A DNA stretch of 47,827 nt from Clostridia bacterium (lineage in GTDB: Bacteria > Bacillota > Clostridia > Christensenellales > DTU072). This document shows, in pieces, positions 6,205 to 47,698 of this stretch. Under the pieces are notes generated by a model. It was not told the DNA's origin. It searched no databases and saw nothing but the letters and a program-made list of their open reading frames with translations. Every line of letters starts with the position of its first letter. The stretch's first letter is position 1. The translations under genes were made by a program, and so were the position numbers. The stretch is from positions 1 through 47,827 of the forward strand of contig JAFVAC010000094.1 in NCBI GenBank assembly GCA_017476265.1. The letters are read 5' to 3'.

Positions 6205-8424
6205 CTAAGCGCGTACCAGCCGCATGGCGACGACGGTCATATCGTCGGGTTTTTTTGATAAGCGAACGGCGTTCTCGATCAAAGCGTCGGCGGCGGCTTT
6301 TGGGTTTTTTACCGTGACAGTCTTCAGGATCTGCGCCACTTCGCTGGGGGCGAGGGCGTCGGCTACTCCGTCACTCATCAGGATGATGAGATCGTCCGGG
6401 CGGAGTTTTTTTCGTACGGTCTGAGGGGTGGTCTCTATGATCCCGAGGGGGAGAGAGTCCCCTTCGATGATCTCATAACTATCGCCGGTGAAGACGTAAC
6501 TCTCTCTTCCGCCCTGCTTGATGAAGTCCGCTTCGGCGGTCCGCAAGTCGATGATCACCGCGTCCAACGCCGAAAAGTCTTCTTTGGAGCGGAGGCTGAG
6601 GAGGTTGCTGACGTTGGCGAAAACGGTCTCGTGATTGAATCCGGCGCGATAGAAAGTTTCCACGAGCCCCGCGACGCCGGTCGCCGTCTCCTTGGCGCGC
6701 GCGCCCGTCCCCATACCATCGGACAGAATGAACATTGTTTTTTTGTTGTCGATCCTGACCGCTTGGCGGGTGTCACCGCAGCGGTTTTCTTTTGAGGAAA
6801 AACATTCTCCGTACAGGATCTTGTAGGACGGCGCGCGACAGAAATGAAGACTGATCTCGCCGTTGATCTCCTTTTTTCGGTAGAACTCTTTCATCGGCAT
6901 CCCAACCGCCTCGCCGACGATCTCGGGAATGGCGGTTTTGTCGGCGTCGGATTCCCTTACGATCAGGGTGACTTCACGCTCGGACCCATCGACATAGATG
7001 CAGACGTCGCGGACGGGCACGTTGGACTTGGAGAGCCGTTCGATAAGAGCCTTTTCCCGTCCGATGTCGAAGGTCAGATTGACGTTGGTGAAGGTGGCGA
7101 GTTTTTGCAAGACGTCGGAAAACCCGTCCAGTTCGGTCACGATCGCTTCTTTGCCCTTTTCCAGTCCGCTCCTGCGTTCGTTTTCCTTTCGGAACAGTTC
7201 GCACTCCTCGTTAACCGCGTGTAATAGATAGGGGAGTTTTTGGCAGTTCTTTCCGAGATTCGCGTCGGCGTCTAAGATACTGACGCGCGTGCCCGACAAA
7301 GCTTCGAGGACGAGTTTCCGGACGGGGATAGCAAGGTCTCCGACGGCGGAAAAGCACTTCCGGAAATAGGGACAAACGATACAACACTTTTCGCAGACGA
7401 CTTTTACGACCGTCTCCGGGCTGCGTTCGGAGGGGACTTCCGCGATCAGAATATCTCTTACGTCGGCAAAGGCGCGGGCGACGTCGGACAGCTTTGTCGC
7501 CAGGGTCTCCCTGTCACGGTTGACGACGGTGCGCAGAGCGTACCGATCGTCGGTCCGGGCAGGTGACAGACGACGAACGAACTTGTCGAATAAAAGAAGA
7601 GAGAGCGCGGACCCCACCGCAAAAGGCAGGAAGGAATACAGATCGATCTTGCCGAAAAAGAAAGTGGTGACCAAAAAGAAGGTGACGATGGAGCCCAATA
7701 CGCGGAAGACGGACTTGTTGTGCGAAAGGGCGAGGACCGCGAGGGCGGGCGCGGCGAAATAGAGCGTGACGGACGGGTCGTAGAGTCCGATCGCCGCGCC
7801 CGCCCCTACGCACAGCCCGTAGGGCAGTGCGTACTTGCGCCCATAGGCGCAAAGCGGACTCAAGAAGAGAGAAAAAATAAGACATTGTACGTTGACGGAA
7901 AATGGTCTTACTTCCGCTATTCCTATACTTAAAATGATGATCAGGATACCCAAACAGACGTTCTCATTATTATTAAAAGGGTATCGTATCCCACGCACGA
8001 GGATGGGATATGCGGACACCAAAGATAAATAGCATACCGCCGCCGTCGTACCGACGGAGACCACCGCCGTCGTGATCCCCAGCGCGTCGAAAGGACCGAA
8101 GGCGACGTGAGGAGTCTGGCACAAAACGGCGCATAAGATGAATTCTATACGAAAGTAGCGTTTTTTGATTTTCCTGTGGAGGAAAAAGACGCCGATCGTG
8201 ATCGCTATGACCGCGGCGGTGGAGATCAAGGCAGGTACGGATCGACTCACCGTCACCGCCGCCCCGGCAAAAGAGGGGAGAAAGAGCCATATTTTTTCCC
8301 GACAGTACAGCAGGGCGAAAGCGCATCCCGCCGCCAGTCCGTATAGCCCCAGCGTCCGCTCCGTCAGGGACAGCAGTGCGAACAGTCCGTAGTAGAGGGG
8401 GATCTTTGCGACGATTTGTTTCAT
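6205..8424 (-). CDS. spoIIE: Stage II sporulation protein E (membrane PP2C-type phosphatase)
   Basis: SpoIIE dephosphorylates SpoIIAA at the asymmetric septum and so activates sigma-F in the forespore; it also takes part in polar septation. The 739 residues (Bacillus SpoIIE is a little over 800) show an N-terminal third of about ten hydrophobic segments (to about residue 275), a soluble linker with a small cysteine cluster (CEKCCIVCPYFRKC, about 345-358), and a C-terminal PP2C domain. PP2C motifs are LSDGMGTGA (about 565), GDSLPLGI (about 650), LMSDGVAD (about 680) and DDMTVVA near the end; the Asp residues bind manganese. The start has GAGG 5 nt upstream. It is monocistronic, convergent with the tilS operon. 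I saw no clear Spo0A box. It is good evidence that the host sporulates. Confidence 0.88.
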   Translation of the reverse strand: MKQIVAKIPLYYGLFALLSLTERTLGLYGLAAGCAFALLYCREKIWLFLPSFAGAAVTVSRSVPALISTAAVIAITIGVFFLHRKIKKRYFRIEFILCAVLCQTPHVAFGPFDALGITTAVVSVGTTAAVCYLSLVSAYPILVRGIRYPFNNNENVCLGILIIILSIGIAEVRPFSVNVQCLIFSLFLSPLCAYGRKYALPYGLCVGAGAAIGLYDPSVTLYFAAPALAVLALSHNKSVFRVLGSIVTFFLVTTFFFGKIDLYSFLPFAVGSALSLLLFDKFVRRLSPARTDDRYALRTVVNRDRETLATKLSDVARAFADVRDILIAEVPSERSPETVVKVVCEKCCIVCPYFRKCFSAVGDLAIPVRKLVLEALSGTRVSILDADANLGKNCQKLPYLLHAVNEECELFRKENERRSGLEKGKEAIVTELDGFSDVLQKLATFTNVNLTFDIGREKALIERLSKSNVPVRDVCIYVDGSEREVTLIVRESDADKTAIPEIVGEAVGMPMKEFYRKKEINGEISLHFCRAPSYKILYGECFSSKENRCGDTRQAVRIDNKKTMFILSDGMGTGARAKETATGVAGLVETFYRAGFNHETVFANVSNLLSLRSKEDFSALDAVIIDLRTAEADFIKQGGRESYVFTGDSYEIIEGDSLPLGIIETTPQTVRKKLRPDDLIILMSDGVADALAPSEVAQILKTVTVKNPKAAADALIENAVRLSKKPDDMTVVAMRLVRA

Positions 8425-13525: not shown

Positions 13526-15919
13526 ATGAACGAAGCGATACTATTATGTGGGACGGTCGCTTTCGGAGCGGCGTTCTACTTCGTCGGGAGAGGTCTCGGC
13601 AACAAAAAGATATATATAAGGAAAAAGGCGTATGAGTGGAAGGACCTTTTCTTCAAGGCCCTTTCGGTCGTCCTCTTTTTGCTCTTTATGCCCCACCTCT
13701 TCATGCGGGAGGCCATCGCTTCGCAGATAGGCGTATCGAGCGACTTCATGCCCGCGCCGAAACCGGACGATTACGGCGTACCGGCCGTCTATACCTATCT
13801 GCCTTTTTCCGCGGTATCCGTCGTCTTTTTGACCATTCTGAAGTGGTTTACCCTCTTTTCGATAGCCGTCACTGTCCTCTTGCCCTTCTTCGACAAGCGG
13901 GAAGGAAAGGACTTCACCGTCCTTGTCACGACGCTTGTGACGCTCTTTAACGGCGTCTTCTTCCGCGCGATCGCGGCGACCATCGTCTATACGCCCTCCG
14001 GCGGGACCGATCTGTACTCCTGGCGGGTGATCGTCTACGCCTGTATCATCGCCCTCAACGGTGCCATCGGGATCGAGCGCGTGATACGCTTTTTTGTCGA
14101 AAAGGACTTCGCTGACTTCGGCAGGCGTATGGGAAAACTCGCTCTGTACATTCTCTTCTATCTCATCGCATTTATGCCGGTGTACGCGCCCCAACTCCTG
14201 TTCGGGCTGGTCGGCAAAACGCCGAAAGGTTTTTCGGTGCCTCATCGTCTGCTCATCTATCTGACGATGATCTTCCCGTTCGCGGTGCAGTTCATTTTCC
14301 GCAAGCGCAGTCGGGCAGAGAGACGCTACGTCCTCATTATGCTGGCCCTCTCCGGCTTCTTTGCCTATTTCTCCCAGTACTACTATCCCGGCAAGACGAT
14401 CATATCCTCTTTGCCGTTGCACTTGTGCAATACCGCCATCGCGTTGATGTTCTTTGCCTACGTCTTCGACTTGAAGGGCGTCTTCTATTTCACCTACCTT
14501 GTCAATATTATGGGCGCGATGATGGCGCTCCTTATGCCGACGACGAAAAACGAGTTCACGTCCATGGGGAACATCGTCTTTTTCTACAACCACATTTACG
14601 CCATCGTGTTGCCTCTGCTTGGCGTGTCCTTGAAAGTGTTCGACCGACCGACGATGAAGTTGATGAAAAAGGCGATCATGTTTTTCACCTTCTACGTCCT
14701 CTTTGCCGCCGTCATGGACGGCTGGTTCAACAATTCCGCCTCCCTCCAGCCGATCACTTTGGCATACGGACAAAAAGGGCACATCGATATCGACTATTTC
14801 TTCCTTTATTCCGACTTCTTCGTCAACAAGTTCTCCTGGGCGATCCCCATCAAATACAACTTCGTATGGAAGTTCCAAGTAGGGGACACCTTGATGACGT
14901 TCTATTATATGTATATCATCGTCATCTACCTCATTTCGGTAGCGTTGATGTTCGCCTTTTGGGGCGTATACGGTATTTTGTACCGCGTGGAGGACTCGCA
15001 TAAAGAACTCGCACGAAGAAAGAAGCTGAGACGAGTGGACAAACTCGATCTGTTGAAAGAACTGAACGGGAGGTCGCCGAAAGAGCCGCTACATCCCGAA
15101 GGAGCGCATATGATAAAAATCAGCCACTTTTCCAAGACGTACGCCGGGAGCGACCGCAAGGCGGTCACCGACCTCAACCTCGAGATCCACGAGGGAGAAG
15201 TCTTCGGATTCATCGGACCCAACGGCGCGGGCAAGTCCACCACCATCAAGTCCCTGGTCGGGATCCAGACGATCACCGAGGGGACGATCGAGATACAAGG
15301 GTACGACATCGCGCGTCAACCGTTGGAGGCGAAGTTGAATATCGGCTACGTCAGCGACAATCACGCCGTGTATGAAAAGTTGACCGGGCGGGAGTACGTC
15401 GGATACGTCGCCGATCTGTATATGGTCAAAGAGGAAGACAAAGAAGCGAGGATCGCAAAATACGGCGAAATGTTCGGTCTGACCGACGCACTCGATCGGG
15501 AGATCAAGAGCTATTCCCACGGTATGAAGCAGAAGTTGATGGTCATATCCGCGCTCATTCACAATCCCAAGGTTTGGGTCCTCGACGAGCCCTTGACCGG
15601 GCTGGATCCGACCAGCTCTTATCAGATCAAAGAGTGTATGCGTCGTCACGCCGACGAGGGGAACATCGTCTTCTTCTCCAGTCACGTCATAGAGGTCGTG
15701 GAAAAGATATGCGACCGCGTGGCGATCATCGCCGGCGGCAAACTCTGCCGGGTCTGCACACCGGAAGAATTGAAAGCCGAAGGAAAGTCGCTGGAAGAGT
15801 TGTACCTCAAGTACGCGTCCATGGCGGAGAGCGGAGACAGGGACGGAGACGATCCCTCGGACGAGTCGGATGGGCGGGAAGAACTCGTCGCGGCGACGGA
15901 TGGAGAGAGCAATGGCTAA
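13526..15919 (+). CDS. YwaF/TMEM164-like membrane domain fused to an ABC transporter ATPase
   Basis: A 797-residue two-part protein. Residues 1 to about 510 hold ten or more hydrophobic segments, and the region SSLPLHLCNTAIALMFF...NIMGAMMALLMP (about 290-340) resembles the YwaF (TIGR02206)/TMEM164 membrane family. From about residue 529 there is a complete ABC ATPase: Walker A GPNGAGKST (564-572), signature YSHGMKQKL, Walker B VWVLDEPLTGLDP and an H-loop SSHVIE. The ATPase closely resembles the stand-alone ATPase of locus B, for example in LTGREYV-YVADLY and IKSYSHGMKQK. A Met at residue 529 has its own ribosome site, so the ATPase may also be made separately. The gene overlaps the downstream permease by 8 nt. 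I infer that the ATPase powers that permease. The role of the YwaF part is unknown. Confidence 0.8.
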   Translation: MNEAILLCGTVAFGAAFYFVGRGLGNKKIYIRKKAYEWKDLFFKALSVVLFLLFMPHLFMREAIASQIGVSSDFMPAPKPDDYGVPAVYTYLPFSAVSVVFLTILKWFTLFSIAVTVLLPFFDKREGKDFTVLVTTLVTLFNGVFFRAIAATIVYTPSGGTDLYSWRVIVYACIIALNGAIGIERVIRFFVEKDFADFGRRMGKLALYILFYLIAFMPVYAPQLLFGLVGKTPKGFSVPHRLLIYLTMIFPFAVQFIFRKRSRAERRYVLIMLALSGFFAYFSQYYYPGKTIISSLPLHLCNTAIALMFFAYVFDLKGVFYFTYLVNIMGAMMALLMPTTKNEFTSMGNIVFFYNHIYAIVLPLLGVSLKVFDRPTMKLMKKAIMFFTFYVLFAAVMDGWFNNSASLQPITLAYGQKGHIDIDYFFLYSDFFVNKFSWAIPIKYNFVWKFQVGDTLMTFYYMYIIVIYLISVALMFAFWGVYGILYRVEDSHKELARRKKLRRVDKLDLLKELNGRSPKEPLHPEGAHMIKISHFSKTYAGSDRKAVTDLNLEIHEGEVFGFIGPNGAGKSTTIKSLVGIQTITEGTIEIQGYDIARQPLEAKLNIGYVSDNHAVYEKLTGREYVGYVADLYMVKEEDKEARIAKYGEMFGLTDALDREIKSYSHGMKQKLMVISALIHNPKVWVLDEPLTGLDPTSSYQIKECMRRHADEGNIVFFSSHVIEVVEKICDRVAIIAGGKLCRVCTPEELKAEGKSLEELYLKYASMAESGDRDGDDPSDESDGREELVAATDGESNG
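15099..15112 (+). promoter_or_regulatory. Internal ribosome-binding site and ATG at the start of the ATPase domain
   Basis: AAGGAG (15099-15104), 5 nt, then ATG (15110-15112), in frame with the fusion gene at codon 529. The encoded MIKISHFSKTY aligns with the first residues of the locus B ATPase (MLTITNLRKKY). Confidence 0.5.
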
Positions 15920-17558
15920 GAACGTCGGTGCGATAAAAAACAGCGTCGCAAGGCGGATCAAGTACCTTGTCCTCTTACAGGCGGGGGAAAAGTTCCGTTC
16001 CGTCAAGACAGCCAACAAGAAAAAACTGGCGTTCAATCTCTTTTTGAGTGTCCTCGTGATCGCGGGAGTGACCTTCGGACTGAACTATTTGTTCGGCTAC
16101 CTGAAGGGTTCGTACAGTTTCAAGATCGGGACCGATCTCTTTACGTCGGTGCTGTTCGTCACGCAGATCATCAGCATCGTCACCTGCGTCGGCAGTATGA
16201 TGGCGGTACTCTACAATGGGAAAGAGAACCTTATTCTGATGGCGTTCCCGTGCAAGTACAACGAGATTTTCGTCAGCAAGATCATCGTCTTCACACTCGG
16301 AGAACTGAAAAAGAGCTGCTTTTTCATCTTGCCGTTCTTGTTCAGTTACGGTTTGGCGTCGGGTGGCGGCGTGGCTTATTGGCTGCAACTGATCCCGATT
16401 TGGCTGTTCTTGACGCTCTTCCCGGTCTTCATCAGCGCGATCCTCTCCATACCGTTTATCTTTGTCAAGAAGTTTTTGGAAAATCACTCCGTCCTTTACG
16501 CCGCGGTCATTGCGGCGACTCTTATCGGAGTCTTTATTCTCATCGTCTTTTTATTAGACAAGCTCCCTCGTCCCATTCGTCTCATCGCGATCTATAACCA
16601 GTTTATGACCTCTTTCGAGGCGAGTTTGGTACAATTCAATCGTTTTGCCCTGTTCTACAACTTCATCGGACGTGCGGCGTTCGGGCAGAAGGTGTATCTG
16701 TATCTGCCGATCGCCCTGATTATCTTCGCCGCCGTCGCCGCGCTGACCTTTTTGGTGGCGATGCCCTTCTACTTCAAGGCGGCGTCCGGTGCGTCGGAGA
16801 ATTCCGTCACCAAAAAGCACAGAGTGCGCGAGCATAAGCACAACAATCTCTTCCTGACCTTTGTCCGCAAGGAGTTCAAGTTGATGTTCCGGACCTCGTC
16901 CTCCATCATCTCGGCGGTCACCATCGTGTTTGTCTTCCCGATTTTGTCGTATGTACTCAATTTCGTCGTGGCGGGGATCCGGACCAGCGACTACGGGACG
17001 TATTTGACGGTCGCGTTCAATCTGATGATCACGCTGTCTCTTTTGTCCACCTACAACGCAAATTGCGCGCAGGCGCTTTCGAGCGAAGGGAGCGAGTTTT
17101 CGGTCCTGAAGGCTGCCCCGAGCAATACGATGATCGTCACTTGGGCAAAGGTCCTCGTGACCATGGTCGTCGATCTCCTTGCCGTAGCGACGATGTGTAT
17201 CGTCCTGACCGTCACCACCAAGTTGTCCGCCGTGGACATCGTATTGATGGTCTTTACCATCATTCCGGTCTCGTTAGGTAACATCCTCTGGTCCTTCCAA
17301 CTGGACATCACCAATCCGAAAGTCAACGACTACGCCGTCAAAGGGGACGCCGTTGTGGACAACCCCAACGTGGCGAGAGCGCTCGTGATCGGGTTCGTCA
17401 TCTCCACGCTCTTCGGCGTGATCGGACTCTTGCTATTGTTCGACAGCCATTTGACCGGCTGGATACGGTTGATATTGATCGCTTACGCCTTCTTCGGCGC
17501 GAGACTGTATCTGTACATCAGCAATCTGAAGGCTTACTTCAACGAGATCCAAGGATAG
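15912..17558 (+). CDS. Large ABC-2-type permease (locus A)
   Basis: A 548-residue membrane protein with two halves of about six hydrophobic segments joined by a basic cytoplasmic linker (KKHRVREHKHNN, about residues 298-309). It is the membrane partner of the ATPase just upstream. It has the same layout as the locus B permease, and three blocks correspond: the FVRKEFKLMFRTSSSIIS block after the linker (FYNELRVIFRSFNYSF in B), LSSEGSEFSVLKAAP (ISRNGETFYLTKIFP in B), and the closing loop with DITNP...N (DLRSP...N in B). ATG 15912 is chosen because GGAGAG precedes it; it overlaps the ATPase stop by 8 nt, giving translational coupling. Direction of transport and substrate are unknown; export or extraction of a surface molecule is a guess. 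Confidence 0.8.
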   Translation: MAKNVGAIKNSVARRIKYLVLLQAGEKFRSVKTANKKKLAFNLFLSVLVIAGVTFGLNYLFGYLKGSYSFKIGTDLFTSVLFVTQIISIVTCVGSMMAVLYNGKENLILMAFPCKYNEIFVSKIIVFTLGELKKSCFFILPFLFSYGLASGGGVAYWLQLIPIWLFLTLFPVFISAILSIPFIFVKKFLENHSVLYAAVIAATLIGVFILIVFLLDKLPRPIRLIAIYNQFMTSFEASLVQFNRFALFYNFIGRAAFGQKVYLYLPIALIIFAAVAALTFLVAMPFYFKAASGASENSVTKKHRVREHKHNNLFLTFVRKEFKLMFRTSSSIISAVTIVFVFPILSYVLNFVVAGIRTSDYGTYLTVAFNLMITLSLLSTYNANCAQALSSEGSEFSVLKAAPSNTMIVTWAKVLVTMVVDLLAVATMCIVLTVTTKLSAVDIVLMVFTIIPVSLGNILWSFQLDITNPKVNDYAVKGDAVVDNPNVARALVIGFVISTLFGVIGLLLLFDSHLTGWIRLILIAYAFFGARLYLYISNLKAYFNEIQG

Positions 17559-17568
17559 GGAGGGCGAT

Positions 17569-17973
17569 ATGAATAAAAAGATAGTCATTCTTGTGGTTCT
17601 TGTCGAATGCGTCCTCGCCATTCTTCTCATCAGCGTATTAGGAAACGCCATCGAGTCGTACTTCAACGAGATCGGCGCACGGGACGTCTACTTCGTGGAC
17701 GCCGAGGGCAATCGCTTGGAGGACGGCGCAACGATTTCGGTGGAGCGGACCGATCTCGGATATCAACTGCAATGGGTGATCCTGCCCGACGATACCACCG
17801 ACACGGAGGTGAAATTCACCTCGACCAAGGCGGAAGTCACGGTGGACGCGACGGGGTACGTCACCTTTGACAGAGACGTAGACGTCGTCATCACGGTGTC
17901 CACCAAAAACGGAAAAACTTCGAATATTCATCTCGTGCCCAAGAAAGAAACGGGCGGTACGGTTGATATATAA
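17569..17973 (+). CDS. Membrane-anchored small Ig-like protein (locus A)
   Basis: A 134-residue protein with an N-terminal hydrophobic segment (about 4-27, no lipobox) and an outside domain of about 100 residues made of beta-strand-like stretches. The ending TSTKAEVTVDATGYVTFDRDVDVVITVSTKNG resembles bacterial Ig-like (Big_2-type) domains, where a strand reading V-D-x-x-G-x-V precedes the last strand pair. The start has GGGAGGGCGAT immediately upstream. It is 10 nt after the permease stop, the same spacing as the Ig-like gene of locus B, whose first domain is a similar anchored Ig fold. I infer that it is the extracytoplasmic partner of the transporter. Confidence 0.65.
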   Translation: MNKKIVILVVLVECVLAILLISVLGNAIESYFNEIGARDVYFVDAEGNRLEDGATISVERTDLGYQLQWVILPDDTTDTEVKFTSTKAEVTVDATGYVTFDRDVDVVITVSTKNGKTSNIHLVPKKETGGTVDI

Positions 17974-18002: not shown

Positions 18003-21000
18003 ATGAAAAAAGGCATCGGAAAGCTGTTTTTATTGACCGTTATGGTTATGATAGCAGTGCTCTGTCTCTACGCCTGCGGCGAAGAGACGTCCTTTACCGT
18101 CACTTTCCACAACGGGGACGAAGTATACGCCACCGTCAAAGTGGGGGACGGAAAGACGGTCACCATGCCGCAGGATCCCACGCCCGCGACGGGGTATACC
18201 TTCGTCGGGTGGTATCTGGACGAGGAGGGGACGAGCGTATTCCAGAGAGACGGCTCCATCACCGACAACGTGGACGTCTACGCAAAATACGCGCAGCAAC
18301 AGCGGTACGTCGTCGTGGACAGCAACGGAGGAAGCGCGGTGGACAGAGTCGCCGTCTCCACCGGGGCGGAGTACACCATTCCCGTACCGACGCGCGAAGG
18401 GTACGACTTCGTCAAGTACACCTACGTTGACGCGGAAGGGGAGAAGCACGACTTTGCCACGACCGGGACCTATACGCTTACGACCAACGTGCGTATCACC
18501 GCCGAGTGGACCAAAAGGGTCTACACGGTCACTCTGCACGTGGAAGGAGAAGAGGACGAGGAGATCGAGATCGAACACGGCAACAAGGTCGCGCCCAATC
18601 AACTGGCTCAAGATGGCTACACCTTCGACGGGTGGTTCGAGCAAGACGCGCAAGAAGCGTATGTGCGTACCACGCCCGTGACGAGCGATCTTGACTTGTA
18701 CGCCCGCTTCACTGCCAAGACCTATCTCATCACCTTCGATACCGCGGGCGGAGAAGAGGTCGCCGACTATACCGCGACCTACGGGCAAGCGTATACTCTG
18801 ACCGCACCGACCAGGGCGGGATATACCTTCGTCGGATATACGTTGGACGGACAGGATTTTGCTTTGAGCGGGACGTATGCCCGCACGTTGGGCGCTCGTC
18901 TCGTGGCGAACTGGAGTAAGAACGACTATACCGTCGCCTTCCTTGACGCGGACAGCGAAGAGCCCTTGGGACAAGCGCAGACGGTCGCCTACAACGAGAC
19001 CGCGACCCTGCCGACGGTGGCGACGGGCTACGAGATCGAGGGGGTCTATACGACTTCGGCTTGCGACGGGGATAAGATAACCGTCGGCACGACCAAGATC
19101 ACCGAAAATACCACTTTCTACGTCAAAGTCAAAGGACAGAACTTCACAATCAGCTACAAAGTCAACGGCGGCGACGCCATCGAGCAACTGACGGTTGAGT
19201 ACGGAAAAGCATATACCCTGACCCAAGCGACCCGCACGGGGTACGACTTTGTCAGATACACCGTCGATATCAACGGCGTTGCGACCGAAATGACGCTTTC
19301 CGGGACCTACACCTATCTCAACAACGTCACCGTCAGCGCGGTGTGGCAGATCAAGAGTTATGAGGTCACGTTCTTGGACGGCGTGACGGTATTGAAGACC
19401 CAGAACGTCAACCACAACGCGTATGCGACGGCGGTAGACGCAATATTTGGGTACAATATCGACGGGTATTACGGGAGTGGCGACTTCGGAGGAAACGCCG
19501 TTGTTCTATCCGACTATCCCATCACCGAGACGACCGTCTTCTACGTCAAAAAGTCTCCGAAAGCGGCTTCCGTCACGGTGGCCGGCTGGGAAGAAGCGTC
19601 TTTCCCCGCCGCGGCATACGGACGGGTCTATACCTTGCCCGATCCCGATGACGAGACCGACGCAAGGATCCGAGCCAAAGTGGGTATCGATATAGACCAC
19701 GCTTGGTTGACTTTTACCGGATACGAGTACAATGGGGAGCCCTTCGCTTGTACCGGGACGATAGACTGGGTGGGCAATATCACCGTTACGCCCGTCTATA
19801 CCGAAAATCCCGACTACGACAAGTGCACCGTTATCTTCATCGACGGCGTCACCGGAGAGTCCGTCGGGGCTTCGCAGACCTTTGCAAGAGGCGGTTCCGC
19901 GACATACTTCTCCGCGCCCGAAAAGACAGGCTACTCCTTTGTCAAATGGGCGACCGAGAAATCTTCAGACGCCGACGAGTTCGACTGGGGCACTGCGATC
20001 TCCGTAGATACGACCATCTATGCCGTGTATCGGGTCAATCAATATACCGTCACGCTCGACAAGAACAACGGTCAACCGGTCGAACAGATATACGTCGAGT
20101 ACGGCGAGGTCCTCGACTTGTACGACTCTTTGGAAAAGCGCGGCTATACCTTCGCCGGGTATGAGTACAACGGAGAAGCGTTCGAGATCGGTCAAGACTA
20201 CGTCTACACGACCGACATCACGATCACCGCTGTCTATACGCGCAACACAAGAGAAGTCGATTTCTATGCGGATGGTTCGTTGATCGATACCGTCACGGTC
20301 TATCAGTACGACGCCGTCACTCCGATCGCCGAACCCGAAAAGACCGGCTACACCTTCCTGTACTGGTCGCTCAGCGCGGGCGGCGCCGAGTATAACCCGT
20401 TGACGGAGGTCGAAAACGATACCAACCTTTACGCCGTGTTCTCGGTCAACACTTACAAAGTCACCGTCGATGAGAACGGCGGGGAGGAAGTCGCCGTAAT
20501 AGACGTCGATTACGGCGCGACGCTCACGTTGCCCGCGACGATGGTCAGACGCGGCTATACCTTCACGCACTTCACCCTCGACGGCGAAGAGTACGCGGGC
20601 GGGATGTATACGTTTACTACCGATATCACCGTCGTCGCGCAATATACGCGCAATGAAAGGACGGTCAATTTCCGCAACGAGAACGGAGAACTGTACGCCA
20701 ACGGAGCAAAGACGATCTATCAATATCAGACCGTCGAAGCGATGAGCGATCCGACCAAGACCGGCTATACCTTCGTACACTGGTCGCTCTCTTTGGACGG
20801 GTCGGAAGCGTTCGACTTTGCGTCCGAGATCGAAAACAACACCGATCTCTATGCAGTGTTCGAAGCCAACAAGTACGTCATCTACGTTCGATACGACGAG
20901 GACGACATTCGCGAGATCCCCGTCGTGTACAACGAAGAGTATAATATCCCCGAGGCGAGCAGATTCGGATACACATTCGTGAAATACACGCGAGACGGAG

Positions 21001-23282
21001 AGGACTTTACGGCGATCGAAGGCGTCTATACCGAGACCAACAATATGTATCTTGTCGTGGTGTGGGAAGATCACAGTTTCTATAGGGCGACTAACAGCAT
21101 GGGCAACGATATGGACTACTTCTTTGAAGTCTTCGGTGACGATCAAGAGTATACGCTGGTCCTCTTGGTCGGAGCGACCTATACTTTCGACGGATACGCG
21201 TTGGTTGCCGGCGGAGAGACTTTGTATCAAAAGACCGCCCCGAATGAAATCACCCCCGTCCTTACCGGCGATTTCACGTTGAACTTGTATATTGATGCTG
21301 ATGGTGATCCCGTCAAGACATACAAGACCAAGGTCGTCTACGACGTCACCGGGATGGAAACCGGCAGCAACTTCAACTCGATGATCGCCAACGCCACGCT
21401 CGAAAACTTCAAGATTGCGACCCAAAGAGCCGCATATGTACAGTCCGCCGGCGTGGAGTATTACATCCCCGATTTGTCGATTACGGATAAAGGACTTAAC
21501 ATCCTCACGTTGGAGGAGGCGAATATCGAAGTTACCGTCTTCGATGAAGAAAACAATGTTATTGCGCCCAACCTCTACGTCCTTTCAGAGAATAGATTTG
21601 ATTTCGACGAGACGTTGATCGGACGGACTTTGAAGCTGAGCTTCGCACCCAAGTATGATATTCATGATCGCAAGCCCATTGATTTAACGGTCTCTTTCAA
21701 CGACGGAAAGAACGTCTACACCAATGCGGAGTTGAAGTCCTATTACAGCAATACGCAGGTCCACACCGTCAACATTCTGCGCAATATCAAGGCGGAACTG
21801 GCGGAGTCCGACTATGTCATCGGACACGGGAAGAACATGCAGGACGTCACCATCTACAAGAACGTCTCCAACGGAGTCTACTCCAACCCGGTGACCCTCC
21901 ACGACGTCGATACCGGCGCCCCGCTCAACGACACCAAGGCGCGCGGCGTCTACGTCCGCACGGGCGATAAGAACGACCGAATCGTCGTCAACGGCAACTA
22001 CTTTGCCATCGACGGGTCGAGCCTGCCGTACATCGACAACCGGTACGGCGAATACGGCTCCACGACGGGGCAATACAGCGACGCCGGAGCCAACTATCTG
22101 ACCGCGGACGTCCAGATCGGTATCTTCTTCTATCAGAGCGCCGACCTGAAGGCAAACGGATACCGCGCACGCAAGTGGGCGACCGGCACGGCTACGTTCA
22201 ACAACCTCCGCATCGAAGGGAACGCGCTGCCCGAATATGCCTCCTACGCGGAGAACATCGGCGAGGAAAAAGCCCTCTTGAAGATGAGCGCGGCGTACCT
22301 TGGCATGATCATCCGCGGCGGTACCGTTACCACCGACAACGTGACCATCAGAAAAACGGCTATCTCCACCATGCTCCACGGTCAGGTCTCCGGATTTGAC
22401 GCGCCCGGCTACAGCGACGGCGTCCTCGGTCAAGCGCAAGAGGGAGAAAAGCACGCCACCAACCTCATCGTCAACAACGGCATCATCGAGAAGAACTGGG
22501 GCAACAGCTTCTACGTCTACGACCTCTGCACGATGACGCTCAGCAATACCGACATCGGGATGTCCTTCGGTCCGGCGATCTCCGTCGATGACAAACCGTA
22601 TGCCAATGAGGACGCGGAAAACACGGACGTCTCCGAGAACGGCTACAGCAATCTGGACATCGAGATCAATATGGACCACTATACCGCGACCCACGTCGAT
22701 TGCTGGATCTCCGGCGACGAGGTGTGGTACACGGCGTACGGGTTGACGCAGAGCGCGACCGGTGCGAAGTCCTTGATCGAAAACGGCGTCAAGAGCGTCA
22801 ACGACAACCTGACCATTTTACGTTGGATAGACGGCGTCCAGAAGATGAACTTCGTCATCATGGTCAAACCCGCCGACGCGTCAAAGAACAGCTGGTGGTT
22901 GTCCGACAAGCAAGGACAGCCCTACGTCAAAGTCTCCGCGTACACCGCCGTGGAAAACGATGGCGGGAACGTGGTCGTCTTCGGCAACGAGAACGAACTC
23001 AAAGCCAGCGCGGATCCCGCCGAGTGCGGCGAAGTGATGTTGGCTTTGGGCGCATATCAGCAGTATATGGCGGCAAGCGACGCGGCGAAAGAAGCCGCCG
23101 CTCAAGCGTATGCGGCAGGAGATATGGAGACGTATCAAACGAAGGCGAACGAGGCGAAGATCGCCGGAACGAACGCTCTGCAGAGCTTCTTGGCGGCAGG
23201 ACCGTACATCGAAGCGGCGGCGGCGACTCCGCTCGGCTTCTCGGTCGCCCTGTACGTCCCGATCTACTCCACGCTCGGATAA
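18003..23282 (+). CDS. 1759-residue InlB-repeat and beta-helix lipoprotein (locus A)
   Basis: A surface lipoprotein: an N-terminal signal segment ends in LYAC with Cys25 as the likely lipid attachment site. Residues about 30-1022 contain fourteen InlB B-type (Listeria-Bacteroides) repeats of 62-80 residues, each with a GYTF-x-x-W/Y core. After a beta-rich linker (about 1025-1240), residues about 1243-1570 look like a right-handed parallel beta-helix: short repeats such as TFNNLRIEGN, TVTTDNVTIRK, NLIVNNGIIEKN and TMTLSNTDIG recur. The last 90 residues are Ala-rich and helical. AAGGAG precedes the start, 29 nt after the Ig-like gene, so it ends the locus A operon. InlB repeats act as stalks or adhesion modules in other proteins; here binding or enzymatic activity is unknown. 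Confidence 0.82.
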   Translation: MKKGIGKLFLLTVMVMIAVLCLYACGEETSFTVTFHNGDEVYATVKVGDGKTVTMPQDPTPATGYTFVGWYLDEEGTSVFQRDGSITDNVDVYAKYAQQQRYVVVDSNGGSAVDRVAVSTGAEYTIPVPTREGYDFVKYTYVDAEGEKHDFATTGTYTLTTNVRITAEWTKRVYTVTLHVEGEEDEEIEIEHGNKVAPNQLAQDGYTFDGWFEQDAQEAYVRTTPVTSDLDLYARFTAKTYLITFDTAGGEEVADYTATYGQAYTLTAPTRAGYTFVGYTLDGQDFALSGTYARTLGARLVANWSKNDYTVAFLDADSEEPLGQAQTVAYNETATLPTVATGYEIEGVYTTSACDGDKITVGTTKITENTTFYVKVKGQNFTISYKVNGGDAIEQLTVEYGKAYTLTQATRTGYDFVRYTVDINGVATEMTLSGTYTYLNNVTVSAVWQIKSYEVTFLDGVTVLKTQNVNHNAYATAVDAIFGYNIDGYYGSGDFGGNAVVLSDYPITETTVFYVKKSPKAASVTVAGWEEASFPAAAYGRVYTLPDPDDETDARIRAKVGIDIDHAWLTFTGYEYNGEPFACTGTIDWVGNITVTPVYTENPDYDKCTVIFIDGVTGESVGASQTFARGGSATYFSAPEKTGYSFVKWATEKSSDADEFDWGTAISVDTTIYAVYRVNQYTVTLDKNNGQPVEQIYVEYGEVLDLYDSLEKRGYTFAGYEYNGEAFEIGQDYVYTTDITITAVYTRNTREVDFYADGSLIDTVTVYQYDAVTPIAEPEKTGYTFLYWSLSAGGAEYNPLTEVENDTNLYAVFSVNTYKVTVDENGGEEVAVIDVDYGATLTLPATMVRRGYTFTHFTLDGEEYAGGMYTFTTDITVVAQYTRNERTVNFRNENGELYANGAKTIYQYQTVEAMSDPTKTGYTFVHWSLSLDGSEAFDFASEIENNTDLYAVFEANKYVIYVRYDEDDIREIPVVYNEEYNIPEASRFGYTFVKYTRDGEDFTAIEGVYTETNNMYLVVVWEDHSFYRATNSMGNDMDYFFEVFGDDQEYTLVLLVGATYTFDGYALVAGGETLYQKTAPNEITPVLTGDFTLNLYIDADGDPVKTYKTKVVYDVTGMETGSNFNSMIANATLENFKIATQRAAYVQSAGVEYYIPDLSITDKGLNILTLEEANIEVTVFDEENNVIAPNLYVLSENRFDFDETLIGRTLKLSFAPKYDIHDRKPIDLTVSFNDGKNVYTNAELKSYYSNTQVHTVNILRNIKAELAESDYVIGHGKNMQDVTIYKNVSNGVYSNPVTLHDVDTGAPLNDTKARGVYVRTGDKNDRIVVNGNYFAIDGSSLPYIDNRYGEYGSTTGQYSDAGANYLTADVQIGIFFYQSADLKANGYRARKWATGTATFNNLRIEGNALPEYASYAENIGEEKALLKMSAAYLGMIIRGGTVTTDNVTIRKTAISTMLHGQVSGFDAPGYSDGVLGQAQEGEKHATNLIVNNGIIEKNWGNSFYVYDLCTMTLSNTDIGMSFGPAISVDDKPYANEDAENTDVSENGYSNLDIEINMDHYTATHVDCWISGDEVWYTAYGLTQSATGAKSLIENGVKSVNDNLTILRWIDGVQKMNFVIMVKPADASKNSWWLSDKQGQPYVKVSAYTAVENDGGNVVVFGNENELKASADPAECGEVMLALGAYQQYMAASDAAKEAAAQAYAAGDMETYQTKANEAKIAGTNALQSFLAAGPYIEAAAATPLGFSVALYVPIYSTLG
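18093..21068 (+). repeat. Fourteen InlB-type protein repeats, alternating two types
   Basis: The repeat units start at about residues 31, 97, 171, 237 and so on to about 1022. Odd-numbered units have a short first strand (VTF-x-x-G), a GYTFVGW-like core and a closing ITDNVDVYAKY-like strand. Even-numbered units have a D-x-NGG strand, V-x-YG-x-YTLP, then GYTFVGYTLDG and GTY-T-TTN-x-x-ITA-W. The boundaries are by eye. DNA identity between units is low, so this is an old protein-level repeat. Confidence 0.7.
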
Positions 23283-24399: not shown

Positions 24400-24945
24400 T
24401 TAAACCGCCAATTTTTTCAATGCGTTTAACGCTTTGTCCAGCGTATCGGGAATAAAGTGGCTGTAAACTTTTTAGGTTACCGTTGAATCTGAGTGTCCCA
24501 TATACTTACTGACCGTCTGTATCGGCACGTTTTGAGAAAGCAGTAAACTGCAATAGGTGTGCCGCAGTCCGTGACAAGATACATACTTGAAACCGTGTTT
24601 CTCTTCAAACTCTTTCAGCCAATGACCTATTGTGTGCGGATACGCAGGCGTTCGATACATGTTGACGACGAGATAGAATTCATCCAACTTTGTCGGAAAA
24701 CTTCTGTCCGCTTCCACAAACCAATCATAATATTTGCGTAAGTCCGCAATCAGATTTTCCGGCATAGGCACGTCGCGGATAGACGTTTTCGTTTTTGGCT
24801 CTTTCTCATACACAAAACCTTTTGCAGCCAATCTGTTTCTGCGGACGCGTAAAACACCTCGTTCAAAGTCTATATCCGACCATCGTAAACCGCAAACCTC
24901 ACCCAACCGTAGTCCTGTCAAAAGCATTATCTCTAATGGGATTCG
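24400..24945 (-). pseudogene. Tyrosine recombinase (integrase), broken at both ends
   Basis: Catalytic domain of a phage/ICE-type integrase, which would cut and rejoin DNA at an attachment site in a tRNA gene. Visible are RIPLEI then MLLTGLRLGEVCGL with the first catalytic Arg, a lysine-rich beta-hairpin (KTKTSIRDVPMP), HGLRHTY (His-x-x-Arg) and GHSD. An in-frame TAA at 24472-24474 follows STVT. Beyond it the same frame continues KVYSHFIPDTLDKALNALKK to a second stop at 24400-24402, so the catalytic Tyr (VYSH) lies three codons past the early stop. The N-terminal arm-binding and core-binding parts are missing; the reading frame runs into the end of an unrelated gene near 24945. It cannot work as it stands and is adjacent to tRNA-Arg, its likely target. 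Confidence 0.88.
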
Positions 24946-26926: not shown

Positions 26927-26956
26927 GTTCAATCTCCCTTATATATCTTTGAGCAT

Positions 26957-39369: not shown

Positions 39370-41835
39370 TCAGACTGCATTTTTTCCTCGTCTCAACTTC
39401 TCGAAAGCGTATTTATCCGCGACGAATTTATCCTTCGGTCCGATGTTCTCGTCCACTTCGTACAGGTAGACGTTAATGCGGTACAGTTCGTGCCCGAGGA
39501 AGGGTTTGACGATATTGGTGTAGTCGTCCAGCATTGCCAGCGGGAAGGTTTTGAAGCGCGGGTCCTCAAAGGTCGGCTCGGTAGTGCAGATATTGAGCGC
39601 GCCGGAAGTGATGACCCCGAGATGGATATAATTCGCGTCCTCCTCTCGGTAGCAGATCCTGTCATATTTCGACTTCGCCAGTTCGTCGGATAAGAAGGTT
39701 GTTATCAATCGTCTGAAGAGGGCGTTCGCTTGGTCGTTGCCGGGTAAGAACTCCCTCCCGAGCATAGCGTCGGAGGTGATGTTCTGCCAGTTGTAGACGT
39801 CAAAGAATCCCGTCTGATGAAAAGTACTCTGCCGGGTGAGCGCGCTCCCGTCGTTTTCACATGCAAAAGTGGATATGCCGATCGCCGGCGCGATGACGTC
39901 GCTGATGATGCAATCGTTGACGGTGACGTCGCCGTAGATGTAGCGGTAGTAGTACTTGCCGTCCTCCCGACGGATCGCGATGACGCGGTTGTTGGGGATA
40001 TACACGCCGAAGTTGCTGGCGTTACGCATAATGCACCCGTCGAAGGTGACTTCCGCCCGCGTCACCGCGGCGCAGTAGTAGCAGTTTTCCAAAATAGAAT
40101 ACTCCACGTGCACGCCTTCCAGGTAGCCGTAGTCCTCCCAGTATTGTTCCTCCTGCGAGCCGATCCAGAGCGCGGCGCCGTGCAGACCGTTGGGAGTGTT
40201 GATCTTGACTCCGTCGTCCCCGCGGATGTAGGCGTTGGTGACGAGGACGCCGCTGTTCTTCACTTGTATGATGGCTTCCTCCGCCTCTTTTTCCGTCGCG
40301 GATACGTCCAACATATAGCCGTTGCCGTACCAATCTGCGACGATCGTCAAGAGTCCGTCCTCCGCCGCCGAAGCGATATCCTTACGCAGGGCGATCACTC
40401 GGCCTTCGGACGAAGCGCGGACGACGTCGGCATACGAGTAGCAGTTGATCCCGTCAACAAGCGTAAAGTGCCTGTTGGCTCTCGCGGAGACGGACAAAAA
40501 TGCGGAGTGATGCGCCGTCACCGATACGGTCACGACGGTGGGCTCCTCCACCGTCTTTTTGACGATCAACGTGTGGTCTTCCGTCACTTCCACAAGATCC
40601 GGGTGAGAGACCGTCAGCTCGAAGTCCTCCCAGTCGGCGTCAACGGGGTACTGAATGGAAAGCGGCACGCGGACGCCTCTTATTCCCTCCGCCGCATACT
40701 CTTGCGTCCCATAGACGGACTCCTGCGCGATCCCGCGTCTGTCGTCCGCGTCCACCGTGTTGAGTCGAACGTATGAGACGGGTTGAACTACGACAAAGTC
40801 CTCGCTTACGGTACCCAATTCACTCAATACGGTCACCTTAAATGTGCCTTTTGTGCTGAACGTAACTCTTCCGTCTTCCTCGGTCGCTCCCTCGGAGACC
40901 GTCACTTCCGCCTGCGGCGTACCCGCGCGCAAGTCGTCCGTATAGACCGCCTCGACGTACAACGGGACCTTGCCGGCGGAATAGACTCTTTCTTTGAGCA
41001 GATCGGCGTTTTTGATCGTCACGCCGTCTTCCGCACGTCGGATCGTAAGAAGTTGTCCCCCGATAGTGAGTTCGGCGACGTCGCCCTCGAGCGTGATCAC
41101 GTTCCCGTCCACCGTCGCGCCGCTTTGAGCCGTCGCCTCGGTGACGCCCAGGTCGCCGAACGTGAGACTCGTCCGGGAAGTCGTCACAGTCGACCCGAAC
41201 CTACTGACAGAGGGCGTGACCTCGATGGTCCTTGTGAAGGTATGCCCTTGTGCGGACGCGGTGATCTCCGCCGTCCCGGGGGACTTCCCTTTCAAAATGC
41301 CGTTCTTATCGACTTCCAAAATAAAAGGCTCAGACGAAGTCCACTCCACGTCGTACACTTCGGCGTCCACGGGGTCGAGGACGGCGGTCAGTTCCGCCCG
41401 GTCTCCCACCGCAAGCGTCGTCGGCGCCGTAAAGGTCAGCCCTTTCATCTCGTCGCATTTGACGTAAAAGTTGGCTCTGGCGGTCTTTCTGCCCTCGACG
41501 GTGGTCACGACCGCGTCAAAGGCGCAATAGGTGGAAAAACGGACCAGTCCGTCCTGTATGGTCACCGGCTCCTCGATCTCATCGCCGAAGCAGACGACGT
41601 TCTCTATCGACCACTCCACATCGCGGTTCCTGGCGGCGGTGGGATAGACCGTCGCAGTGAGCGAAAAACTGCCTTGCGACAGCCCGATCTCCATAGTCTT
41701 GTTCTCTTCCACGTTGAGCTCCACGCTCTCCACGGCAATATACACCTCGTGCGCGATCACACCGGTGGCAAGCAGGACGCTCGCCACGATGATGAGGGGC
41801 AAAAGTAAAAGCATCGCTACGACTATTTTTTTCAT
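39370..41835 (-). CDS. Membrane-anchored Ig-like / beta-helix surface protein (locus B)
   Basis: An 821-residue protein with an N-terminal hydrophobic segment (about 4-28, no lipobox), then several bacterial Ig-like domains. The first (about 36-120) has VELNVEENKTMEI, LTATVYPTAARNRDVEWS and QDGLVRFS; a second Big_2-like domain (about 128-205) has PVDAEVYDVEWTSSEPFILEVDKNGILKGKSPGTAEITA; further beta-rich domains follow to about 460. Residues about 470-720 look like a right-handed beta-helix (GVLVTNAYIRG, VEYSILENCYY, VTFDGCIMRNASNFGVYI, VTVNDCIISDVIAPAIGI). GGAGGG precedes the start, 10 nt after the permease stop. It combines in one protein the two parts that locus A keeps in two genes. Confidence 0.78.
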   Translation of the reverse strand: MKKIVVAMLLLLPLIIVASVLLATGVIAHEVYIAVESVELNVEENKTMEIGLSQGSFSLTATVYPTAARNRDVEWSIENVVCFGDEIEEPVTIQDGLVRFSTYCAFDAVVTTVEGRKTARANFYVKCDEMKGLTFTAPTTLAVGDRAELTAVLDPVDAEVYDVEWTSSEPFILEVDKNGILKGKSPGTAEITASAQGHTFTRTIEVTPSVSRFGSTVTTSRTSLTFGDLGVTEATAQSGATVDGNVITLEGDVAELTIGGQLLTIRRAEDGVTIKNADLLKERVYSAGKVPLYVEAVYTDDLRAGTPQAEVTVSEGATEEDGRVTFSTKGTFKVTVLSELGTVSEDFVVVQPVSYVRLNTVDADDRRGIAQESVYGTQEYAAEGIRGVRVPLSIQYPVDADWEDFELTVSHPDLVEVTEDHTLIVKKTVEEPTVVTVSVTAHHSAFLSVSARANRHFTLVDGINCYSYADVVRASSEGRVIALRKDIASAAEDGLLTIVADWYGNGYMLDVSATEKEAEEAIIQVKNSGVLVTNAYIRGDDGVKINTPNGLHGAALWIGSQEEQYWEDYGYLEGVHVEYSILENCYYCAAVTRAEVTFDGCIMRNASNFGVYIPNNRVIAIRREDGKYYYRYIYGDVTVNDCIISDVIAPAIGISTFACENDGSALTRQSTFHQTGFFDVYNWQNITSDAMLGREFLPGNDQANALFRRLITTFLSDELAKSKYDRICYREEDANYIHLGVITSGALNICTTEPTFEDPRFKTFPLAMLDDYTNIVKPFLGHELYRINVYLYEVDENIGPKDKFVADKYAFEKLRRGKNAV

Positions 41836-41845
41836 ATTCCCCTCC

Positions 41846-43507
41846 TTACGGCACGATCTTTTGATACTTCTTGTCCACCGTCAAAAAGAGCGTAAGGACG
41901 CTCGCGGCGGCGATAACAAGACTCACCCCGGCGAGGATGAGATACAGTCCCCTCGTCCCGGAACTGTACCCGCCGATGGGCAAGTAGGTCAGGATCATAC
42001 ATACCAGTCCGTACAGGACCGCCACGACTATGCCGAGGATCATCGAGTTGGAGACGTTTTTGTTGACTTTTGTCAGCTCCCCCTCGCCATTGACTACAAA
42101 TGTGGGTGACCGAAGATCGGACAGGATCGCCACGGCGGTCTGCGCCACAATGATAAGCAGCGAGATGAAAAAGATCGCTATGACGTCCACGAACCCGATA
42201 TATCCGCCGTACTTTTCCCCGCCGAAAGCCGCCCAGGTCACCAGAGTGGACAAGAGACTGCTCCCGCCCGCCACCATGATATAGAGCAAAAATTTGGCAA
42301 AGATCTGCGTCTTGTATGGCACGGGGAAGATCTTGGTCAGATAAAAAGTCTCGCCGTTTCTGCTGATCGTCGTCGACGCGAAGCTGACGATGATGGTATC
42401 AAAGATCAACACGACCATCAGGGTCAATCCGGGTATGATCGCGCCGCCCACCGCCGAGTCTCCGACCGCCACGGCGAGATCGTTGCAGAAATACACCATA
42501 AGAGGCGCCGCGATCGCCATCGCCAGGTACTGGAAGGAGTAGTTGAAGGAGCGGAAAATGACCCGCAGTTCGTTATAAAAAATCGCCGAGAAAGGAGAGT
42601 TTATTTTCGTCGTCTTCGGCGGACGCTTCGTGAAAGTCTCTTTGCCCTTCTCCAGACTCTTGAGTAAAGTGTGGTAGTAGCTCTTTTTCGACAAAAGGAT
42701 ACTGACGGCGCCGATCAAAAGCGTCACGCCCACCGTCAAAGGGATATTGAGCAAGAGCCGCTCCCTGTACAAGACGTTGGCGAACCAACTCGCCGGGACC
42801 AGCGAGGACGCGATCGACTTGATCTTGAGGAGAACTTCTTCGCTGAAAAAGACGTTGGACTCCGAAGTCTGATAGTACTCCAATATGCCCCGAAGCACCA
42901 GCATATACGCCGAAAACGCCGCCACCATCAAAACGATGATGAGGACCAACTTCAGTCCGAACTTGTTGCGGACGGTGTTGTTGACGTGCATGACGGGCAC
43001 GGCGATTAGATTCGCCAAAAAGAAGGGCAGAATGGACGAATACAGCGCAGTAGCCACCGCCGCGATATAAAAGCCCCAATGCTGGGCGGTAAAGACGCCG
43101 TAGTAGATGTAGAACGGCAACGTAAACAGTAGCGCAAGGAGCACGTTCTTCAAAAACACGAAGGCAGCCTTCGCCGAAAACAGCTCCATTCCGTCGATGG
43201 GGAAGCGCAATAACAGTTCGTTGTCCACGTCGTAGTAGAGGGACTTGATGAGCCCGCCGCAGGACACGCACAACTCCACCGCCATACCGGCGAGCGTCGT
43301 GACCACGAGGTATTCGTATTGCATCGGGACCGACCCGCGCAGGATCATCTTGGACACGAAATATGTCCCAATGATAAAGATCGCGTAGATGATGGCGTCG
43401 AACAAAAGATTGAGGATGACCCCCCCTATCGCCTTTTTCCCATTGACGCCGTTGAGTCCGAATTGCCCCCTGATCTCCATCTTGAGTGTGATCAGAAAGT
43501 TATTCAT
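41846..43507 (-). CDS. Large ABC-2-type permease (locus B)
   Basis: A 553-residue membrane protein with two halves of about six hydrophobic segments and a basic linker (KGKETFTKRPPKTTK, about residues 286-300). It is paralogous to the locus A permease: FYNELRVIFRSFNYSFQ, ISRNGETFYLTKIFPVPYKTQIFAKFLLY and DLRSPTFVVNGEGELTKVNKNVSNS match its counterparts in order and spacing. The start has GGGAGGG upstream and overlaps the ATPase stop by 8 nt, exactly as in locus A. It should form a transporter with that ATPase. The substrate is unknown. Confidence 0.82.
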   Translation of the reverse strand: MNNFLITLKMEIRGQFGLNGVNGKKAIGGVILNLLFDAIIYAIFIIGTYFVSKMILRGSVPMQYEYLVVTTLAGMAVELCVSCGGLIKSLYYDVDNELLLRFPIDGMELFSAKAAFVFLKNVLLALLFTLPFYIYYGVFTAQHWGFYIAAVATALYSSILPFFLANLIAVPVMHVNNTVRNKFGLKLVLIIVLMVAAFSAYMLVLRGILEYYQTSESNVFFSEEVLLKIKSIASSLVPASWFANVLYRERLLLNIPLTVGVTLLIGAVSILLSKKSYYHTLLKSLEKGKETFTKRPPKTTKINSPFSAIFYNELRVIFRSFNYSFQYLAMAIAAPLMVYFCNDLAVAVGDSAVGGAIIPGLTLMVVLIFDTIIVSFASTTISRNGETFYLTKIFPVPYKTQIFAKFLLYIMVAGGSSLLSTLVTWAAFGGEKYGGYIGFVDVIAIFFISLLIIVAQTAVAILSDLRSPTFVVNGEGELTKVNKNVSNSMILGIVVAVLYGLVCMILTYLPIGGYSSGTRGLYLILAGVSLVIAAASVLTLFLTVDKKYQKIVP

Positions 43508-44282
43508 CCGTCCCTCCCGCGCCGTAGACGGCGTTCTCCAATTCCAGTATGGACTTGATCTTTTCCCGGTCCATTCCCGCCGCGGTATAGAAAGTCTCCT
43601 CCAGACGGTCCTGGTTTGCCTTGTTGCCGGCGAGTTCCATCACTTCGACGAGTTTGCCGTTGTTGATGATGGCGACGCGGTGGCAGAGTTTTTTGACCAA
43701 GTCCAGATTGTGCGAACTGAAAAAGACGGTGTTGCCTTTTTGGCAGTGTTCCTGCATATGCAGGACGATCTCGGCGGTGGACTGCGGGTCCAAGCCCATC
43801 ATCGGCTCGTCCAGGACCCACAATTTCGGCTCGTGGATCAGGGCAGCGGTGATGCAGATCTTCTGCTTCATTCCGTGAGAATAACTCTTGATCTGACGGT
43901 CCACGGCAAAGCCGAGATTGAACAGTTCGAGATATCTCTCCAGCCGCTCCTCGCGCTCCTTTCCCACCTTGTAGACGTCGGCGACGTAGTTGACGTACTC
44001 CCGCCCGGTGAGTTTGTCTATGACGGAGTGATTGTCGGGGACGTAGCCCACGTTCATCTTCGCCTTGTTCGGCTCCTTTTGCACGTCGTAGCCGCAGATC
44101 TCTATCTTCCCTTCGTCAAAGGGCAGGATCCCCGTCAGGCACTTGATCGTCGTCGATTTCCCGGCGCCGTTCTTGCCCAAAAAGCCGAAGATCTCCCCTT
44201 GTTTTACTTCCAGATTCAACCCGTCGACCGAATAGCGGTCGCTTTTTGGATATTTTTTTCTCAAATTCGTTATCGTCAACAT
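43500..44282 (-). CDS. ABC transporter ATPase (locus B)
   Basis: A 260-residue ATPase: Walker A GKNGAGKST (about 36-44), LTGREYV (about 92-98), signature YSHGMKQK (about 136-143), Walker B LWVLDEPMMGLDP and H-loop SSHNLD. It resembles the C-terminal ATPase of the locus A fusion over its whole length and lacks the YwaF part. ATG 44282 is chosen because GGAG lies about 8 nt upstream; the frame continues farther upstream without a ribosome site. A small membrane-protein gene ends 123 nt upstream on the same strand. The permease overlaps its end by 8 nt. Confidence 0.88.
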   Translation of the reverse strand: MLTITNLRKKYPKSDRYSVDGLNLEVKQGEIFGFLGKNGAGKSTTIKCLTGILPFDEGKIEICGYDVQKEPNKAKMNVGYVPDNHSVIDKLTGREYVNYVADVYKVGKEREERLERYLELFNLGFAVDRQIKSYSHGMKQKICITAALIHEPKLWVLDEPMMGLDPQSTAEIVLHMQEHCQKGNTVFFSSHNLDLVKKLCHRVAIINNGKLVEVMELAGNKANQDRLEETFYTAAGMDREKIKSILELENAVYGAGGTDE

Positions 44283-44405
44283 TGTATTTATCTCCGTGTA
44301 AATTATCGCGCGATATGCGCCGAGTCCGGCTCTCCTTGAAAGAACCGCCAAAGTCCGCCGAGCGGAAAGAGACTATCCCCTTCGCTCGCTCCTATGAAAA
44401 AAATC

Positions 44406-47660: not shown

Positions 47661-47698
47661 ACTTCCTCCAAATTTTACGGAAATCAAAAGTCTATTTT

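Follow-up and report, generated by a model that had tools for sequence, protein, structure and literature searches.

A TMEM164-like membrane domain fused to an ABC ATPase heads a conserved four-gene cassette that encodes a predicted surface lipoprotein

The sequence analysed here is contig JAFVAC010000094.1 of a Clostridia bacterium from the order Christensenellales, the whole 47,827 nucleotides of which we refer to as the window. On its forward strand lies a cassette in the order acyltransferase-ATPase (putative), permease, one-helix Ig-like protein and large surface protein with a beta-helix-like domain:

13526..15919, + strand: fused gene (797 aa, ATG start), a predicted 13-helix membrane domain with TMEM164 core followed by an ABC ATPase (open reading frame, Pfam, 54 distinct fused relatives)
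14231..14926, + strand: TMEM164 core, residues 236–467 (PF14808, 58.6 bits)
14426..14428, + strand: codon of Cys301, the proposed nucleophile, predicted at the outer face (63/63 proteins, topology)
14591..14593, + strand: codon of His356, the proposed general base (63/63 proteins, 9/9 short standalone relatives)
15101..15805, + strand: ABC ATPase half, residues ~526–760 (ABC_tran and NCBIfam matches)
15912..17558, + strand: permease, ~548 aa, the next gene in fused cassettes
17569..17973, + strand: one-helix protein with Ig-like outer part, 134 aa (family alignment)
18003..23282, + strand: predicted surface lipoprotein of 1759 aa that carries 11 List_Bact repeats and, at its C-terminus, a conserved beta-helix-like domain (Pfam, shared domain, lipobox)
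18075..18077, + strand: codon of the lipobox cysteine, residue 25 of the surface lipoprotein (lipobox scan)

The first gene is a single unbroken frame of 797 codons that comprises both a membrane domain and a complete ABC ATPase. An earlier note, made from the sequence alone, had described it as a YwaF/TMEM164-like domain joined directly to a full ABC ATPase, and the domain search that it proposed bears this out: Pfam places PF14808 (TMEM164) on residues 236–467 with E 8.3e-16 and a score well above the cut-off of 25 bits, and ABC_tran (PF00005) on residues 548–690 with E 3.7e-28 and 99.3 bits. The two motifs on which the note relied, LPLHLC and NIMGAMMALLMP, are located at residues 296–301 and 327–338, and the ABC half carries a Walker A motif at residue 564 and the signature SHGMK at about residue 664. 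The NCBIfam model TIGR02206 (TMEM164-related integral membrane acyltransferase) scores 59.6 bits, below its cut-off of 75, which places the protein outside the subfamily as defined by that model. PF14808 was found in all eight proteins scanned, i.e. the window's own and seven other fused, split or standalone ones; the fused gene is its single match in the genome of the window, and among 14 control genomes matches occur in Bacillus subtilis and Corynebacterium glutamicum. YwaF of B. subtilis is, as we take it, a named member of the TMEM164 family (PF14808; TIGR02206). The fused protein shares with this family the character of a membrane protein with a core of about 220 residues containing a cysteine and a histidine, but is extended at the N-terminus by about 230 residues that include additional helices, ends in an ABC ATPase and is encoded within a transporter cassette. 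A PDB sequence search with the membrane domain returned nothing useful, and a fold search with an AlphaFold2 model of the membrane region, built from five sequences and of low confidence (mean pLDDT 55.8), gave no match at E ≤ 0.001.

Among NCBIfam models, the ATPase half best matches drrA and GldA, with scores far under their curated cut-offs. The permease gene probably starts at position 15912 and so shares its first eight bases with the fused gene, its open reading frame being listed from 15870; ABC_tran_2 (PF16949) is detected in seven of twelve members of the permease family, the window's own permease being without a match at E ≤ 0.01, and a PDB sequence search with it gave no useful match. 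These likenesses connect the cassette to ABC-2-type exporters (drrA/GldA/ABC_tran_2), from which it differs by the putative acyltransferase on the ATPase and by the Ig-like and surface subunits.

The genome is fragmented into 122 contigs and split genes exist elsewhere, which would fit a stop codon lost through faulty assembly or sequencing, with the fusion as the result, a reservation already voiced in the earlier note. With the membrane domain as query, 13 of 98 genomes (the window's own and relatives) gave matches, and a 14-row profile matched 69 of 396 genomes of the order at E ≤ 1e-8; in this latter search, frames of 667–857 aa account for 54 hits in 52 genomes. The set of 54 distinct fused proteins that we read consists of 53 of these 54 long-frame hits (G381 was left out) and one protein from the 98-genome search, and contains the fused gene of L006/L070, which lies under a longer opposite-strand frame and was added by hand. 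The ABC half is present in 54/54 of them, and by the labels of the search table they belong to 11 families of the order. Because the fusion recurs in so many distinct proteins from many assemblies within one clade, loss of a stop codon by error can be excluded, its probability being vanishingly small. Nine further proteins possess the TMEM164 part without an ABC half: L007 is cut by a contig end, L076 and L136 represent a split form in which the TMEM164 gene and the ATPase are adjoining separate genes in the same cassette order, and for six of the nine no ATPase of the fusion's kind was found downstream in the DNA examined. Related genomes thus contain both the same fusion and the split adjacent genes that the earlier note had suggested looking for. 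In a sample of 391 genomes of the class, matches at E ≤ 1e-20 were limited to the own order, and in a phylum sample of 398 genomes nine matched at E ≤ 1e-10, namely the window's genome and eight others with standalone frames of 254–284 aa that align over the TMEM164 core only. Within the sampled genomes, the fusion is confined to its own order.

Two residues of the core are invariant: Cys301 and His356, presumably the counterparts of the catalytic residues of human TMEM164, are present in 63/63 proteins (54 fused and nine without an ABC half). Residue 299 is a histidine in 54/54 fused proteins and a glutamine in seven of the nine without an ABC half. Nine short standalone relatives all keep the histidine, together with the cysteine in seven cases and a serine in two. 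L150 and L151 are standalone TMEM164-like proteins in which serine replaces the cysteine and the histidine is retained. The 13 helices derive from the low-confidence AlphaFold2 model (pLDDT 55.8) in broad agreement with hydropathy; with the ATPase fixed inside, the density of Lys and Arg amounts to 0.20–0.32 in inside loops and 0.01–0.08 in outside loops, and it is higher inside than outside in 63/63 sequences, as in a positive-inside pattern. From this model and the charge rule, Cys301 is predicted to lie five residues deep in helix 9, counted from the outer side, and His356 within that half of helix 11 which faces outward; both would thus be located at the outer face, on the other side of the membrane from the ATPase.

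According to PMC13276253, TMEM164 is a cysteine-dependent acyltransferase that moves a chain between phospholipids. PMC12345273 describes LhaT (YpjA), placed by its authors in the superfamily defined around TMEM164, as a protein with six helices and no ATPase that N-acetylates Bacillus lipoproteins outside the cell; by which route the acyl donor gets across the membrane is called unclear there. The designation of the family as an orphan in the earlier note consequently does not stand. The link to a transporter drawn there is real, the four-gene cassette and its lipoprotein having escaped it; its proposal of a regulatory or substrate-recruiting role is less convincing, because the conservation of Cys and His in 63/63 proteins favours an enzyme over a purely regulatory or recruiting domain.

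Where over 4.5 kb of DNA follows the fused gene (34 rows), the permease was detected in 33 and is present with a longer overlap in the 34th (L110), and the Ig-like protein occurs in 34/34; for these counts, small genes of L015/L016 that lie under longer opposite-strand frames were recovered. In 35/35 rows with more than 4.3 kb downstream, the last gene encodes the shared C-terminal domain. A lipobox is encoded by the last gene in 33 of these 35 rows, which corresponds to 32 of 34 distinct fused cassettes, as row L113 stems from the same genome as L016. Two cassettes have a last gene without lipobox: In L125 the frame is broken and the upstream fragment carries the lipobox, and L133 is a real exception with a fused TMEM164-ATPase and an outer protein that is in one piece, helix-anchored and devoid of a lipobox:

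G124:C9 5780-8299, − strand: exception protein of L133, Ig-like protein and beta-helix-like domain in one chain

As a background, the same loose lipobox test is passed by 60 of all 426 genes at these loci, a number that includes the lipoproteins of the cassettes themselves. Both split cassettes (L076, L136) contain a lipoprotein that matches the fused-cassette lipoprotein domain in a profile comparison (97.7%, E 2.3e-12). In Pfam, the surface proteins show List_Bact repeats, Big_3 and weak pectate-lyase-like or beta-helix matches; because the latter are weak, beta-helix is a likely label for the shared domain rather than a proven fold, and an AlphaFold2 model from six sequences was poor (mean pLDDT 43.5).

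A second locus of the window, locus B, holds a related set of genes in which the TMEM164 domain is missing:

43500..44351, − strand: ATPase of locus B, not joined to a TMEM164 domain (55% identical to the ABC half of the fusion)
41846..43507, − strand: locus B permease (permease profile, BLAST, tree)
39370..41835, − strand: locus B one-piece outer protein, 821 aa, helix-anchored, with Big_2 and a beta-helix-like part (Pfam Big_2, profile match)

As the earlier note had stated, this standalone ATPase is the closest relative of the fusion's ABC half in the window (E 5e-86). Downstream of locus B follow a gene for 204 aa and one for a BspA-type leucine-rich-repeat protein of 2939 aa with a lipobox-like N-terminus (29530-38349, − strand), a predicted lipoprotein in which we counted 13 stretches of BspA-type repeats (LRR_5) and one List_Bact repeat. 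Relatives of the locus B permease exist in 19 of 39 genomes, and 14 regions were taken from the resulting table. Twelve loci, the window included, have the permease and a long helix-anchored protein adjoining an ATPase without TMEM164; outside these twelve, L183 is cut by a contig end, L189 is a different transporter and L191 has no long helix-anchored protein. A scan of 14 aligned long helix-anchored proteins found no lipobox, and one of them has a cysteine at residue 7, within the helix. By profile comparison, their late part is homologous to the domain shared by the fused-cassette lipoproteins (98.6%, E 1.2e-15; reversed and shuffled controls 0.1% or less). Without TMEM164 the outer part is thus one helix-anchored chain, and with TMEM164 it is divided into a small helix-anchored protein and a lipoprotein. 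The putative acyltransferase and the predicted lipid anchor hence co-occur, with L133 as the one clear exception. At 35 loci with more distant ATPase-permease pairs, three of which had no gene found to show, the Ig-like protein and the lipoprotein domain were both absent from the neighbouring genes.

Since twelve sister cassettes lack the acyltransferase, the core machine can do without it, and the retention of all other parts at these loci is what one would expect of a machine that works in the manner of NosDFY. NosDFY is composed of an ATPase, an ABC-2 permease and a beta-helix outer protein, and ATP hydrolysis moves the outer protein so that it acts on a client. If the cassette, which has parts of these three kinds, operated likewise, the TMEM164 domain would mainly dock or sense the lipid anchor. 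The likeness is one of parts: NosDFY has no acyltransferase, the outer part of the cassettes is helix- or lipid-anchored, the Pfam scans of the outer proteins gave the weak beta-helix or pectate-lyase-like matches named above and no NosD family, and the permease found no PDB counterpart by sequence. Moreover, docking does not require that Cys and His be retained in 63/63 proteins, and we consider this explanation unlikely.

In a combined tree, for which ATPase and permease were placed side by side (55 rows, 776 columns), the fused rows form one group (99.9/100), with L133 as its first branch on a long branch, and the rows without TMEM164 form a separate one (100/100); the split rows are a third group (100/100) that joins the fused rows with weak support (52/73). 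The ATPase-only tree with 72 rows again unites the fused rows (96/78), but differs from the combined tree in that locus B is nearer than the split rows to them. Because the fused rows group together in both trees, a single fusion event is likely. The counts of lipid anchors are accordingly not independent of each other, as one or two evolutionary changes account for the link between TMEM164 and the anchor.

What the sequence shows is the architecture: a conserved fusion, a cassette of four genes, a Cys and a His that never vary, and the joint occurrence of the TMEM164 domain and a predicted lipid anchor; for the reaction, we infer acyl transfer. We tentatively favour an ABC machine that carries an acyltransferase at its outer face, which would most likely act on the machine's own lipoprotein subunit, as LhaT does in Bacillus, a reading to which we give somewhat less than even confidence. 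The fused gene would then code for the ATPase subunit of an ABC-2-type machine with an N-terminal membrane acyltransferase of the TMEM164 kind, an assignment that is equally tentative. Catalysis would be initiated by Cys301, which, aided by His356, would take an acyl group from a lipid of the outer leaflet and pass it to an acceptor at the outer face. The most likely acceptor would be the N-terminal cysteine of the cassette's lipoprotein after it has been processed by Lgt and signal peptidase II. Once acylated, the lipoprotein would sit with the Ig-like protein on the permease and form the outer part of this transporter, and ATP hydrolysis would drive whatever the machine moves or remodels. 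Through the covalent link, the modification would take place on the very transporter that uses the product; the transporter may, in other words, carry its own tool to modify the lipid anchor.

Outer-face acylation of the cassette lipoprotein is favoured because of the chemistry of TMEM164 and LhaT, because Lgt is present in the genome and because PF07187, PcrB and Lit found no match in it. The LhaT family DUF1405 (PF07187) is also without a match in the Pfam scan of the fused protein, and since PcrB (PF01884), the maker of LhaT's heptaprenylglyceryl donor, is missing from the genome's matches too, LhaT membership and a PcrB-dependent acetyl donor were ruled out. The proposal is further supported by the lipoprotein as last gene in 32/34 fused cassettes against the background of 60/426. 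It is opposed by L133, which keeps the fused TMEM164-ATPase without a lipobox partner, by locus B, which has a giant downstream lipoprotein and no TMEM164 domain, and by LhaT itself, which works without an ATPase. The dependence among the anchor counts and the low confidence of the topology model also weigh against it.

Alternatively, the TMEM164 domain may be an active outer-face transacylase whose acceptor is a lipid or envelope molecule flipped or extracted by the ABC machine, the lipoprotein being its outer subunit only. TMEM164 itself moves acyl chains between phospholipids (PMC13276253), in L133 the enzyme is accompanied by no lipid-anchored partner, and lipid flipping would account for the ATPase. 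Under this explanation, the tie to a lipid-anchored partner becomes a coincidence, and the cassettes read contain no lipid-synthesis gene as a constant neighbour. PF09989, presumably linked to plasmalogen synthesis, has no match in the genome, by which weak test an ether-lipid (plasmalogen) route is without support here and was rejected. We regard a lipid acceptor as possible, if on the unlikely side.

Returning to acylation of the lipoprotein, a more far-reaching version would be an ATP-coupled lipoprotein N-acylation in monoderms that is dedicated to a transporter's surface subunit, distinct from LhaT and Lit, and co-evolved with the change between helix and lipid anchor; this version we deem doubtful. 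A limited library of literature that we searched yielded no description of a TMEM164-ABC fusion, and what is new is the combination of parts of known kinds and its tie to a predicted lipid-anchored subunit. That two functions are physically fused strongly indicates that they work together. The present fusion ties a poorly studied bacterial branch of TMEM164 to an ABC machine and, via the cassette, to a surface protein with a predicted lipid anchor, so that the bacterial family gains a candidate substrate specific enough to be tested. For the crossing of the donor, the step left unclear in the study of LhaT (PMC12345273), a fusion of ATPase and putative outer-face acyltransferase would also be a natural place to seek a coupled solution.

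Directly after the cassette lies a 4'-phosphopantetheinyl transferase-like gene (PF01648; 23372-23989, + strand). A phage-integrase-family fragment (24472-24927, − strand) matches only model positions 31–162 of 172 from its first residue and is perhaps the remnant of a mobile element. Two AAA_14/DUF4143 ATPases are encoded at 25562-26932 and 46434-47687, both on the − strand, and a SpoIIE-like gene (6205-8424, − strand) hints at a host that forms spores or once did.
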